Shown in pieces: positions 22,247 to 40,158 of a stretch of 64,000 bases of DNA. Position 1 is the stretch's first letter, and every line of letters starts with the position of its first letter. Source of the DNA: Halarcobacter bivalviorum (lineage in GTDB: Bacteria > Campylobacterota > Campylobacteria > Campylobacterales > Arcobacteraceae); assembly GCF_003346815.1 (NCBI RefSeq), contig NZ_CP031217.1, forward strand, positions 2,294,001 through 2,358,000. Reading direction: 5' to 3'. Made by a program: the position numbers and the translations under genes. Below the pieces are notes generated by a model. That model worked only from the letters and a program-made list of their open reading frames with translations. It ran no database searches and was not told where the DNA came from.

Positions 22247-23854
22247 ATGGAAAATACACTATTAATTATATTTGTTTCACTTGCGTTAGCAACTATTTTA
22301 AATCTAATTTTAAAAAGACTATCTATTTCTCATATTATTGGATATATTTTAACAGGAACTATTGTTGCAACAATATTTAATTTTAATGAGAAGAGTACTC
22401 TTCATACTTTGGAATTAATTGCTGAATTTGGTATTGTTTTTTTAATGTTTACTATCGGTTTAGAGATGCCTTTAGAGAGAATAAAAAAATTAAAAAAACT
22501 TCTTTTTGGAAATGGTCTTTTACAAGTTTGTATTAGTGCAATAATCATCTTTGTAACTACTCATTTTATATTTAAACTTGATTTCACTTCATCTTTAATA
22601 ATCTCACTAGCTTTCTCTTTATCATCAACAGCTATTGTATTAAGTTATTTAAAACAATCAAAAGATATTTATACTCCCTACGGAGAAAAATCTACTGCTA
22701 TCTTAGTTTTTCAAGACTTAGCAGTTATTCCTATCTTATTACTTATTACTTTTCTTTCATCTGAGGGAAGTTCTATTGAGATAATTTTGTTTAAAACATT
22801 TATTTCTGCTTTAGTAATTATTGCACTTATGTTTACTATTGGTAAAAAAGTTATGGGTTATTTATTACAGTTTTCTTCAAACACCAGATTAGAAGAACTA
22901 TTCTTAGCTTCGGTTTTATCGATTGTTTTAGGTGCTTCTTTATTAGCCCATGAGTTTGGTTTTACCTATTCACTTGGAGCTTTTATTGCTGGGATGATTA
23001 TTGCTGAGACTAAATATCATATAAAAGTTGAATCAGATATTTCAAGTTATAAAGATTTACTTCTTGGAACATTCTTTTTTTCAGTTGGAACTAAAATAGA
23101 TATCTCTTATTTTATTGAAAATATTTTTTATCTATTTGCTGTTTTAGTTCTTGTAATGCTAATAAAAGCAGTTGTTGTATATTTTATTGTTAAACAAGAT
23201 TCAAATAAGAGTGACTCTATTAAAGCAGCTCTTGCTTTATGCCAAATTGGAGAGTTCTCTTTTGCTGTTTTTGCTCTTGCTAGTGCAGATGGTTTATTAG
23301 AAGAAAATCTTAGTAATTTTCTTATTTTAGTTACTGTTCTATCAATGATTTTAACACCTTTTATTATCAATAATATTTATAAACTCTCTTCATATATTAT
23401 TGTTGAGTTTTATGAGTCAGATAAGATTACTCCTATTAATAAAAAGAACCATATCGTTATTTGTGGTTATGGAACTTTAGGAAGAATTATTGCAAAAGAG
23501 TTAGAAAAACAAAAAAAAGAGTTTGTAATAATTTCAGACAATTTAAAGCATGTAGTTCTTGCAAGAAAAAATGGATATATGGCATATTTTGGACACTTAG
23601 AAAAGTTACCTGTTATTGAATCACTAAAAGTAGAAGATGCTTCAAGTATTATAATAACACTTAGCAATATCTCTAAAAAATCTCTGATTTGTGAAGCAAT
23701 TTTAAAATATGATGAAAATGCAAATTTAATAGTAAAAATTGATTCAAAAAGTGAAAAACAATATTTAAGTGATTTAAATATTAAAAATTTTATTCATGCT
23801 CAACAAGAGACAGCTAACTTAATAATTCAAAAAAGTTTAGAAGCTATAAGCTAA
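22247..23854 (+). CDS. Kef/CPA2-type monovalent cation:proton antiporter with RCK domain
   Basis: This is an inner-membrane antiporter exchanging K+ or Na+ for protons. The 535-residue protein has about twelve membrane helices with CPA2 landmarks: SISHIIGYILTGTIV (about 27-41), EFGIVFLMFTIGLEMP, FSLSSTAIVLSYLK, FQDLAVIP near 155, and the CPA-type core HEFGFTYSLGAFIAGMIIAET. A cytoplasmic RCK (TrkA-N) domain begins near 400 (IVICGYGTLGRIIAKELE, with the GxGxxG nucleotide site). No TrkA-C domain is obvious at the end. It is monocistronic with its own 126-bp upstream gap. Confidence 0.93.
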   Translation: MENTLLIIFVSLALATILNLILKRLSISHIIGYILTGTIVATIFNFNEKSTLHTLELIAEFGIVFLMFTIGLEMPLERIKKLKKLLFGNGLLQVCISAIIIFVTTHFIFKLDFTSSLIISLAFSLSSTAIVLSYLKQSKDIYTPYGEKSTAILVFQDLAVIPILLLITFLSSEGSSIEIILFKTFISALVIIALMFTIGKKVMGYLLQFSSNTRLEELFLASVLSIVLGASLLAHEFGFTYSLGAFIAGMIIAETKYHIKVESDISSYKDLLLGTFFFSVGTKIDISYFIENIFYLFAVLVLVMLIKAVVVYFIVKQDSNKSDSIKAALALCQIGEFSFAVFALASADGLLEENLSNFLILVTVLSMILTPFIINNIYKLSSYIIVEFYESDKITPINKKNHIVICGYGTLGRIIAKELEKQKKEFVIISDNLKHVVLARKNGYMAYFGHLEKLPVIESLKVEDASSIIITLSNISKKSLICEAILKYDENANLIVKIDSKSEKQYLSDLNIKNFIHAQQETANLIIQKSLEAIS

Positions 23855-23862
23855 TAAGCCTA

Positions 23863-23928
23863 AAATAAAAAAAGAGCAAAGAAAAATCTCTGCTCTATAC
23901 TACTATGAAGGACGTTTAATTAGTAGGT
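23863..23928 (-). ncRNA. candidate small RNA opposite the antiporter-bioF gap
   Basis: The minus strand here carries a strong intrinsic terminator with no gene to serve. Its stem is AGAGCA-g-AGA/TCT-t-TGCTCT (23896-23873), with loop TTTT, and TTTTTTATTTT follows (23872-23862). Upstream on the same strand a perfect TATAAT lies at 23940-23935, and a second possible extended -10 (TGCTATAGT) at 23956-23948. A transcript from about 23928 would be about 65 nt. A 6-bp stem, CTACTA (23926-23921) with TAGTAG (23905-23900), encloses a loop containing CGTCCTTC, which is complementary to Shine-Dalgarno sequences. This is a prediction from sequence only. Confidence 0.5.
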
Positions 23929-24033
23929 GAAGAAATTATAACTACTCACTATAGCAAAACAGTAGCATTTAGAAAAAATTTAACAATTTTTAAAAATTTT
24001 TTGTATATAATTATAAAATTATTAGGAGTAATA

Positions 24034-25128
24034 TTGTACGAAAAAGAGTTGAACTCAATCAAAAAAGCTAATAGATATCGTACTAGAAAGGTCTTTGATA
24101 CTAATCTTGTTGATTTAGCCTCAAATGACTATTTAGGTCTTGCCTCTCAAAAAATACTTTTTGAAAATACTTACAAAAAACTCTATCAAGAAAAATTCAC
24201 TTCACCAAAAGCATCAATTGTTGTAACAGGATATAGCCAATTTCATAAAGATTTTGAAGATGATTTAAAAAAATACAATGGTTTTGAAGATGCAGTTGTA
24301 GTTGGAAGTGGTTTCTTAGCAAATATCTCAATGATTGAAGCACTTGTAAGAAAGGGTGATATTTTATTTATTGATGAAAACTATCATGCAAGTGGAATGC
24401 TAGCAACTAGACTTCTAAATAAAAATCAAGTAGTTATTTTCAAACATAATGACTGCCAAGACTTAAAAAAGAAATTTGAAAATCAAGATGCAAAGGGACG
24501 AAAAATTATTGCCATAGAAGGAGTTTATTCTATGGAAGGTGATTTAGCTCCTAAAGAAATTTTTGATTTTGCAAATGAAAAAAATGCTTTACTAATAGTT
24601 GATGAAGCACACTCTTCTGGAATCTTAGGAGATAAGCTTTTAGGAATTTTTGATTTATATAAAATCAAACCCAAAGAAAATCATATAAAAATGGGAACTT
24701 TAGGAAAAGCCTATGGAAGTTATGGAGCATATATTCTTGCTTCAAAGACTATAATTGATTTTCTTGTAAATAGAGCAAAAGCCATTATCTACACAACTGC
24801 TCCATCTTTATTTGATATAGTTTTAGGCCATGAATCATTAAAATATATACAAGAAAATAAAGAACAATTTAAAGAGAAAATTGATTCTAACTTACAACTT
24901 GTAAACAATATTTTAGGTTTAAACTCTCAAAGTTTAATTATTCCTGTGCAAATAGCAGATAACAAAAAAGTTTTAGAACTTCAAAAAAGTTTAGAACAAA
25001 AAGGTTATCTTGTAGGAGCAATAAGACAACCTACAGTTAAAAGTGCAATAATAAGACTTATTGCAAAAACTGATATTAAACAAAGTGACTTAGAGTATGT
25101 TTGTAATTTTTTAAAGGAAGCAAAATGA
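24034..25128 (+). CDS. bioF: 8-amino-7-oxononanoate synthase-like alpha-oxoamine synthase
   Basis: This PLP enzyme condenses an acyl-thioester with an amino acid; BioF makes the biotin precursor from pimeloyl-ACP/CoA and alanine. I chose TTG 24034 (364 residues), five bases after AGGAG; the frame extends upstream to 24001 without a ribosome-binding site. Landmarks are LASNDYLGLAS near residue 30, FVVGSGFLAN-type AVVVGSGFLAN near 85, DENYHASG, VDEAHSSGILG near 190, and the PLP lysine in MGTLGKAYGSYG near 230. It is slightly short for BioF. The following gene overlaps by 4 bp. Related enzymes (Kbl, serine palmitoyltransferase) are less likely because of the length and the SYG after the lysine. 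Confidence 0.85.
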   Translation: MYEKELNSIKKANRYRTRKVFDTNLVDLASNDYLGLASQKILFENTYKKLYQEKFTSPKASIVVTGYSQFHKDFEDDLKKYNGFEDAVVVGSGFLANISMIEALVRKGDILFIDENYHASGMLATRLLNKNQVVIFKHNDCQDLKKKFENQDAKGRKIIAIEGVYSMEGDLAPKEIFDFANEKNALLIVDEAHSSGILGDKLLGIFDLYKIKPKENHIKMGTLGKAYGSYGAYILASKTIIDFLVNRAKAIIYTTAPSLFDIVLGHESLKYIQENKEQFKEKIDSNLQLVNNILGLNSQSLIIPVQIADNKKVLELQKSLEQKGYLVGAIRQPTVKSAIIRLIAKTDIKQSDLEYVCNFLKEAK

Positions 25129-38352: not shown

Positions 38353-38450
38353 TTTTCTGCTACAAAACTAAACATTTTTTTCTGCTATTTTATTGCTACT
38401 ATTAATTATCATACAAATATCATAACTTCTATTTATCATTAAGATATATT
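38353..38450 (+). promoter_or_regulatory. lactate permease upstream region with direct repeats
   Basis: The 140-bp gap before the permease holds two copies of TTTTCTGCTA (starting near 38353 and 38379) and three ATCAT repeats (38408, 38419 and 38436 approximately, spaced 11 and 17 bases). TATATT at 38445-38450 may be the -10 element, and AGAAGGA precedes the ATG. The repeats are candidate regulator sites; no known consensus is matched. Confidence 0.3.
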
Positions 38451-38466: not shown

Positions 38467-40158
38467 ATGGGAATTGGGACACAAGCACTTTTTGCTGCTT
38501 TACCAATATTCATTGCTGCAATTTTATTAGTTGGATTTAGATTTCCAGCTAAAAAAGCAATGCCTATTGTTTATCTTGCAACTACAGCAGTTGCATATTT
38601 AGTATGGGAAGTTACATTCAATAGAATTTTAGCTTCAACAATCCAAGGTCTACTTATTACAGTTGCGGTTCTGTGGATTATTTTCGGTGCTATTTTATTA
38701 TTAAATACACTTAAACACTCTGGTGCAATTGCAGTAATTAGACAAGGATTTAACAATATTAGTCCAGATAGAAGAGTTCAAGTAATTATTATTGCTTGGT
38801 TATTTGGTTCATTTATTGAAGGTGCATCAGGTTTTGGTACACCAGCAGCTATTGCAGCTCCACTTTTAGTTGCAATTGGTTTTCCAGCTATGGCAGCAGT
38901 TATGGTTGGTATGATGATTCAAAGTACACCAGTATCATTTGGAGCTGTAGGAACTCCTATTTTAATCGGTGTAAACAAAGGTTTAGATAGTGCTGCAATT
39001 AGTACTACTTTAGATAACCTTGGTTCTAGTTGGGAAACTTATTTACAAATTATCACAAGTGAAGTTGCTATTGTTCATGCTATTACTGGAACATTAATTC
39101 CTCTATTTATGGTAATGATGTTAACAAGATTTTTTGGTAAAAACAAATCTTGGACAGAAGGATTAAATATTATTCCTTTTGCTATTTTTGGTGGTTTAGC
39201 ATTTACAATTCCTTATGCTTTAACAGGTATCTTCTTAGGTGCAGAGTTCCCATCATTAATCGGGGCACTTATTGGTTTACCAATTGTTGTATTCGCAGCT
39301 AAAAAAGGTTTCTTATTACCAAAAACAACTTGGGACTTTGCTCCAAAAGAGGAGTGGCCAGTTCATTGGGTAAGTAAATTAGAGATTAAACTTGATGCAA
39401 TGAGCACAAAAGCAAATATGTCATTAACTAAAGCTTGGATTCCATATGTATTAGTTGCGATTATTCTTGTTATAACAAGAGTTTCTTCAGAAGCTAAAGC
39501 CTTTGTTTCTTCTTGGGTTATTCCATTCAAAGATATTATGGGAGAAGGTTTAGGATATGCTATAACTCCACTATATTTACCAGGTGGTATTTTAGTATTT
39601 GTAGCTCTTGTAACTTATTTCTTACATAAAATGGAATTTAAAGAGATGAAAGCTGCAATTGGAGAATCTTCGCAAGTAATGATTGGTGCAGGATTTGTAC
39701 TTGTATTTACTATTCCTTTAGTTAGAATTTTAATTAACTCAGGAATTAATGAGTCAGGATTTGATTCTATGCCTGTTGCTATGGCAAACTTTGTTGCAAC
39801 TTCAGTTGGAGATATTTATCCACTATTTGCACCTCTAGTTGGAGCATTAGGTGCTTTCATTGCAGGAAGCAATACAGTTTCAAATATGATGTTATCACAA
39901 TTTCAATTTGGTGTAGCAGATGCTTTAAGTATTTCTACTGCATTTATGATTGCACTTCAAGCAGTTGGAGCAGCAGCAGGTAATATGATTGCTATTCACA
40001 ATGTAGTTGCAGCATCAGCTACAGTTGGTTTACTTGACCAAGAGGGTGAAACATTAAGAAGAACAATTATCCCTACTATTTACTATTGTTTAGTTGCGGG
40101 GATTTTAGGTCTTATTGGAATGTATGTGTTAGGTTTAACTGACCCATTAATGAAATAA
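38467..40158 (+). CDS. L-lactate permease (LctP/LutP family)
   Basis: This proton-linked lactate/glycolate importer of 563 residues has about thirteen membrane helices. The family motif [23 protein letters not shown] occurs near 118-140 (shown here as [19 protein letters not shown]), followed by [19 protein letters not shown]. Near the end are [14 protein letters not shown] and [19 protein letters not shown], both conserved in LctP. It is a single-gene unit. No lactate dehydrogenase or lut genes are in the window. Lactate is a main carbon source for many Campylobacterota, which fits. Confidence 0.94.

Follow-up and report, generated by a model that had tools for sequence, protein, structure and literature searches.

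A gene for a regulatory small RNA (sRNA) of about 65 nucleotides (nt) has been predicted on the minus strand of a 64,000-nt stretch of the Halarcobacter bivalviorum genome (NZ_CP031217.1, positions 2,294,001 to 2,358,000). This stretch is referred to as the window and the genome that holds it as G000; positions are window coordinates unless stated otherwise. From sequence, fold and conservation in the genus, the sRNA is placed at 23864..23928 (minus strand), with A23928 as its most likely 5' end and its 3' end in a T-run. The 5' hairpin (23900..23926, minus strand) has a 6-bp stem, CUACUA/UAGUAG, and a 15-nt loop, AUUAAACGUCCUUCA, and is followed by an intrinsic terminator (23866..23896, minus strand) composed of a stem (23896-23873) and a T-run (23872-23866), which a terminator scan reads as AGAGCAGAGATTTTTCTTTGCTCT and then TTTTTTATTT. 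The hairpin carries the seed AACGUCCUUC (23907..23916, minus strand), which is invariant in the genus and complementary to GAAGGACGUU. The -10 element TATAAT lies at 23935..23940 (minus strand), leaving 6 nt between it and A23928. A preliminary description of this DNA, made from the sequence alone, had proposed a leftward terminator without a gene on that strand, a TATAAT about 40 nt upstream and a transcript of about 65 nt whose 5' hairpin exposes an anti-Shine-Dalgarno loop. The terminator stem is indeed accompanied by no minus-strand open reading frame of at least 60 amino acids, the TATAAT at 23940-23935 is a perfect match at the proposed distance from the stem, and the predicted fold gives the loop in question. 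Two features go beyond that description, namely the 5' end and a conserved promoter box upstream of the -10 element, TGCTACTGTTTTGCTA (23952..23967, minus strand), which is a direct repeat TGCTA-N6-TGCTA with a period of 11 and ends 11 nt upstream of the -10 element.

The sRNA gene lies between two genes on the plus strand. One encodes a sodium/hydrogen exchanger with a TrkA_N domain (22247..23854; PF00999, PF02254) and is the neighbour on the same strand in 14 of 16 genus loci. The other (24034..25128), with a TTG start and divergent from the sRNA, is judged from its sequence to encode a bioF-like aminotransferase, and has its own -10 element, TATAAT, at 24006-24011. The fold energy of the sRNA is -17.1 kcal/mol, which none of 200 shuffles equals (z = -4.9). 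Terminator-like sites found by pattern in 8 kb are unremarkable in number (3, where shuffles give 2.1 +/- 1.8), and the sRNA promoter is absent from the output of a sigma-70 scan because it has no TTGACA-like -35 element. The locus stands above chance because it is conserved in the genus; pattern scans alone would not flag it. No match to any Rfam family (release 15) was found in the window at the gathering threshold, the best sub-threshold scores being those of tsr26 (21.0 of 141 bits), sbrA (20.2 of 45) and ar15 (17.1 of 40). The last of these (RF02345) is a short sRNA family with weak whole-length similarity to the present RNA, but its score is far under the gathering value and it belongs to another phylum, being alphaproteobacterial.

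The region was recovered by DNA search in all 16 genomes of the genus. Terminator, loop and -10 element, on whose conservation in close relatives the preliminary description had staked its prediction, are kept in all 16. The core CCUACUAAUUAAACGUCCUUCAUAGUAG is identical in 13; in the remaining three (G006, G011 and G012) one or two loop bases are added or altered, all outside the seed. The -10 element is TATAAT, TACAAT or TAAAAT throughout. Of the 16 sRNA promoters, 15 carry the exact box and that of G003 has it with one mismatch. The terminators vary in sequence, with hairpin and T-run kept in all 16, and sRNA length ranges from 61 to 72 nt.

The search was extended to a family sample of 104 genomes, 16 of the own genus (g1) and 88 others. 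A covariance search in relatives, which the preliminary description had put forward as a check, recovered the genus members with a model built from the genus (R1) and gave no clear match in the other 88 genomes. Three weak R1 matches (G019, G029 and G037) overlap loci that were later found by the promoter pattern. The same box was found at 13 of 28 bioF loci of other genera, followed by a promoter and transcript arranged in the same way, with a different RNA body; the view that the sRNA is restricted to the genus was therefore abandoned. A promoter-grammar pattern (TGCTA-N6-TGCTA, 11 nt, -10, ACTAATT) matched 38 of the 104 genomes at one place each, and the reversed pattern matched none. Just two of the 38 belong to the own genus, because the spacing of most members falls just outside the pattern. 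In total 53 transcripts were compiled: 38 found by pattern, 14 from the remaining genus members and one found by eye (G050). G047, G048 and G084 were inspected and did not qualify, and in several outgroup transcripts the terminator was not recognised by the script.

The terminal hairpin of 20 genomes of genera g2 and g16 retains 11 pairs while the bases have changed at most positions; position 9, for example, reads T.G, A.T, C.G or T.A. Transcripts of G016, G091 and G095 were re-extracted for this covariation analysis, and in the full-length duplex comparison given below they are shortened by a false terminator. The terminator loop holds GCGACCUU in 19 of the 20 genomes and GCAACCUU in one. 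Among the cells of stem positions 1-11, 11 are G.U, five are non-standard in other ways and none is A.C, and the excess of G.U over A.C favours transcription of the sRNA strand. This bears on an alternative in which the conserved parts are DNA elements, a control region of the divergent bioF gene and a terminator that prevents readthrough, with no functional RNA. In most box-bearing loci, outside the genus too, the distance from the box to bioF downstream of it is indeed 66-77 nt, and T-runs occur on both strands of the hairpin in several g2 genomes. However, the spacing from box to -10 is fixed on the sRNA strand, ACTAATT follows just downstream, the loops are invariant, and a leftward terminator serves neither neighbour because the antiporter gene and bioF both read rightwards. 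With the G.U count added, this alternative is very unlikely. The locus has its own predicted intergenic promoter, a conserved terminator structure, an unpaired conserved seed and, with exceptions, conserved complementarity to an mRNA encoded elsewhere (DUF485). On comparative grounds it is close to certain that 23928-23864 encodes a regulatory sRNA, both as a gene and as to its class.

The candidate targets are the starts of DUF485 genes, which precede actP (acetate symporter) in two tandem copies, and of pta. The DUF485-1 start reads ATGAAGGAC or ATGAAGGAT in 13 of the 14 genus genomes having this gene, and ATGAAGGAC occurs there in 4 of 32 cases in other genera; the exception, G011, has AGGACGTTTTAATTA in the 5' leader of DUF485-1. 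AGGACG serves as the Shine-Dalgarno sequence of DUF485-2 in 10 of 15 cases in the genus against 0 of 21 elsewhere, and the chance of all 10 falling in the genus among 36 is about 1e-5 by a hand calculation that ignores relatedness. The two copies thus carry different sites, start codon and Shine-Dalgarno sequence, respectively, and both fit the seed. Across the whole G000 genome, AAGGACG followed by 2-8 nt and ATG is found at three genes, pta, DUF485-2 and a gene that we take from its sequence to be chemotaxis-receptor-like. A second ATGAAGGACG is present in the DUF485-1 5' leader upstream of the start in G005 and G012 and may form a double site (L190, L180). In many genomes the two tandem DUF485-actP operons are flanked by two DUF294/CBS nucleotidyltransferase-like genes (L203, acetate loci).

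G000 contains 13 copies of the seed complement GAAGGACG: eight in four pairs 1435 bp apart, one at the sRNA locus and four elsewhere, and one of the last four is the start codon of a DUF485 gene. The four pairs are presumably ribosomal RNA (rRNA) operons, an identity assumed from two pair members that were read. They raise the alternative that 23S rRNA or the ribosome is what the loop acts on, since 5'-ACGUCCUUCAU-3' is perfectly complementary to 5'-AUGAAGGACGU-3' near the 23S rRNA 5' end; this 11-nt match is present at all four places, together with another site of 9 nt some 1435 nt further downstream. However, the seeds of other genera, CUCCUCCUC and GCGACCUU, lose the 23S match, whereas the mRNA start sites fit and shift along with the seed, so action on the ribosome is barely credible. 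In G000 and G014, GAAGGACG also lies in a leader between a promoter-like sequence and an apparent transfer RNA (tRNA) gene (L153, L147, around position 1501), where it might act as a sponge for the sRNA. The start of the Cache-domain kinase gene is preceded by GGGACGTTTATT or GGGCGTT in G013 and G002 and is a possible feedback target (L332, L320).

Target prediction with the loop sequence, also suggested in the preliminary description, placed DUF485-1 first, pta second and DUF485-2 fourth among 83 gene starts of G000 ordered by pairing energy. In 29 genomes, every unpaired stretch of the sRNA was then compared with the starts of 15-26 local genes of the same genome; in G011 and G012, where the fold forms weak pairs within the loop, the loop was defined manually. 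A DUF485 start was top-ranked in 21 of the 29, against 3.1 expected for random labels, 192 of 546 (35%) with sRNAs of other genera and 232 of 1160 (20%) with shuffled segments. Within the own genus, DUF485 came first in 12 of 16 genomes, compared with 36 of 208 in the control. When 135 gene starts of g2 and g16 were pooled and paired with the terminator loop, eight of the best nine were DUF485 and the other was DUF4212, in a set enriched in DUF485 by the way it was fetched. Full-length duplex energies for DUF485-1 and DUF485-2 were best with the sRNA of the own genus in g1 (-28.8, -24.5) and g4 (-40.6, -38.1), and second best and best, respectively, in g15 (-25.7, -26.6). DUF485 is present in 84 of the 104 genomes, and 52 of these 84 are among the 53 with the sRNA; among the 20 without DUF485, one (G097, 88% complete) belongs to the 53. 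This co-occurrence is partly due to shared ancestry.

On this evidence the DUF485-actP mRNAs are a likely target, as judged from complementarity. Another explanation is that the sRNA is genuine and has other main targets (prpB-, dctQ- and putA-like genes, tRNA leaders, many carbon-uptake genes at once), the DUF485 match being one among many or partly fortuitous. Seed complements were found at the starts of genes presumed, from their sequence, to be prpB-like (G004), a TRAP small permease (G003), proline-dehydrogenase-like (G011) and chemotaxis-receptor-like (G000), and DUF485 starts are sticky in general. Across the eight genomes searched (30 sites read), none of these genes recurs in the majority, whereas DUF485 does recur, and its two copies fit the seed by different sites. 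Other main targets are accordingly considered unlikely, with appreciably more weight than is given to the DNA-element or ribosomal explanations. The comparative evidence supports the trans-acting anti-Shine-Dalgarno sRNA first envisaged, with candidate targets complementary at the ribosome-binding site or start codon.

The promoter box is likely to be a binding site of a transcription regulator. G000 contains 26 matches to TGCTA-N6-TGCTA and none to the reversed pattern; seven other genus genomes contain 9-25, and the reversed pattern gave 0-2 over all eight. Of the 26, ten fall within the acetate locus (genome positions 582566-595816), and a box followed by 11 nt and TATA(A/C)T is found upstream of pta and of the DUF4212 gene in most of 30 loci examined. 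The gene behind the box at 595801 was at one point considered to be acs and is instead DUF4212 with a symporter gene. Other G000 boxes precede genes that we take, from their sequence, to be frdC, acnB, moeA, rplI and genes for an aldehyde dehydrogenase, a hydrogenase subunit and a binding protein. In the window, a box at 38383-38398 lies about 70 nt upstream of the L-lactate permease gene (38467-40158); lactate uptake may therefore be under the same regulator. Directly upstream of the DUF4212 operon are genes for an OmpR-type regulator (Response_reg and Trans_reg_C) and a kinase with Cache domains, and this regulator may bind the box.

What the sequences show is the gene, how it is conserved, the layout of its promoter, covariation in the hairpin and a match to DUF485 starts by complementarity; from this we infer expression of the sRNA, the regulator and its activating role, repression of the target and a physiological role. 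The RNA is probably a trans-acting sRNA, co-regulated with acetate genes, that pairs at DUF485-actP starts and brakes acetate uptake. A box-binding regulator, most likely the OmpR-family protein encoded beside the acetate genes, would activate the sRNA together with pta-ackA and the DUF4212 symporter operon. The C/U-rich loop would pair with the Shine-Dalgarno sequence or start of both mRNAs of the tandem DUF485-actP pair, as well as of pta in some species, and would thereby prevent ribosome loading and repress translation of DUF485-actP. The outcome would be an incoherent feed-forward brake on acetate uptake.

Several results weigh against this mechanism. DUF485 was not first in 8 of the 29 genomes: G001 (rank 7), G003 (2), G007 (2), G011 (4), G016 (4), G049 (7), G051 (2) and G090 (11). 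Part of the pairing signal is unspecific, because any segment of this kind tends to pair well with DUF485 starts, as the frequency of first places with foreign sRNAs indicates. The full-length duplex matrix is clear for g1, g4 and g15 only, with no diagonal for g2, g19, g3, g5, g13 and g16. No covariation with targets is seen inside the genus because the seed is invariant there, AAGGACG precedes pta in a minority of genus genomes (7 of 16), and no terminator was found in the G050 transcript. The OmpR-type regulator is assigned to the box by proximity only, and the box, from its place before bioF in most loci, could serve that gene too.

Comparisons with known systems draw on the available sections of the papers cited. 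CJnc230 of Campylobacter jejuni is a 98-nt sRNA of the flagellar regulon, dependent on RpoN/FlgRS and encoded downstream of flgE (PMC11187230). As is predicted for the present RNA, it is a Campylobacterota sRNA that feeds back on its own regulon and represses at the ribosome-binding site of its target, and it carries a single-stranded anti-Shine-Dalgarno CCUU between stem-loops (PMC11187230). The present RNA differs in its length of 65 nt, its association with acetate genes, its TGCTA box, its TATAAT -10 element and its location between the antiporter gene and bioF. RepG of Helicobacter pylori is likewise a Campylobacterota sRNA acting on an mRNA leader (PMC8295292), whereas the loop described here matches Shine-Dalgarno sequences and start codons of acetate-symporter genes. 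In Pseudomonas and Vibrio, actP and a DUF485 gene are controlled by the two-component system CrbS/R (MxtR/ErdR), for which no sRNA is named in the available part of the source (PMC5715377). CrbR belongs to the LuxR type and its ACTU motif is an inverted repeat (PMC5715377), whereas the present system has a period-11 direct repeat, an OmpR-type regulator and a kinase with Cache domains, and CrbR was dropped as the box regulator because its motif is inverted and the box is direct. By these features the sRNA gene falls outside a CrbS/R regulon, which is marked by an ACTU inverted repeat, a LuxR-type regulator and an SLC5-STAC kinase, although no genome-wide search for CrbR was made. Literature searches on Arcobacteraceae yielded no description of a base-pairing sRNA, and those on actP or DUF485 with a small RNA yielded no such RNA. 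Intergenic regions of Arcobacter sp. L have been screened, and a candidate reported there may overlap this sRNA (PMC6429828, as far as its available text goes). According to the accessible part of a review, A. butzleri has no CsrA, and functions of its other regulatory proteins have not yet been reported (PMC6682613).

Pairing segments differ by genus: g1 has CGUCCUUC in its 5' loop, g2 and g16 have GCGACCUU in the loop of the terminator, g15 has CUCCUCCUC in the linker and g4 has UUCUUCCUCCC, while the g19 segment fits the DUF485-2 coding start. The target sites differ in line with the pairing segment of each genus. It is tentatively suggested, with slightly less than even confidence, that one sRNA occurs family-wide in which gene position, promoter and target (DUF485-actP) have been kept while the seed has been replaced. 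If so, the family would provide naturally occurring examples of seed turnover with the wiring unchanged, and this cross-genus series would allow one to ask how an sRNA swaps its seed yet keeps its target. The analysis yields a specific RNA, a promoter grammar and a target that are open to one reporter experiment.
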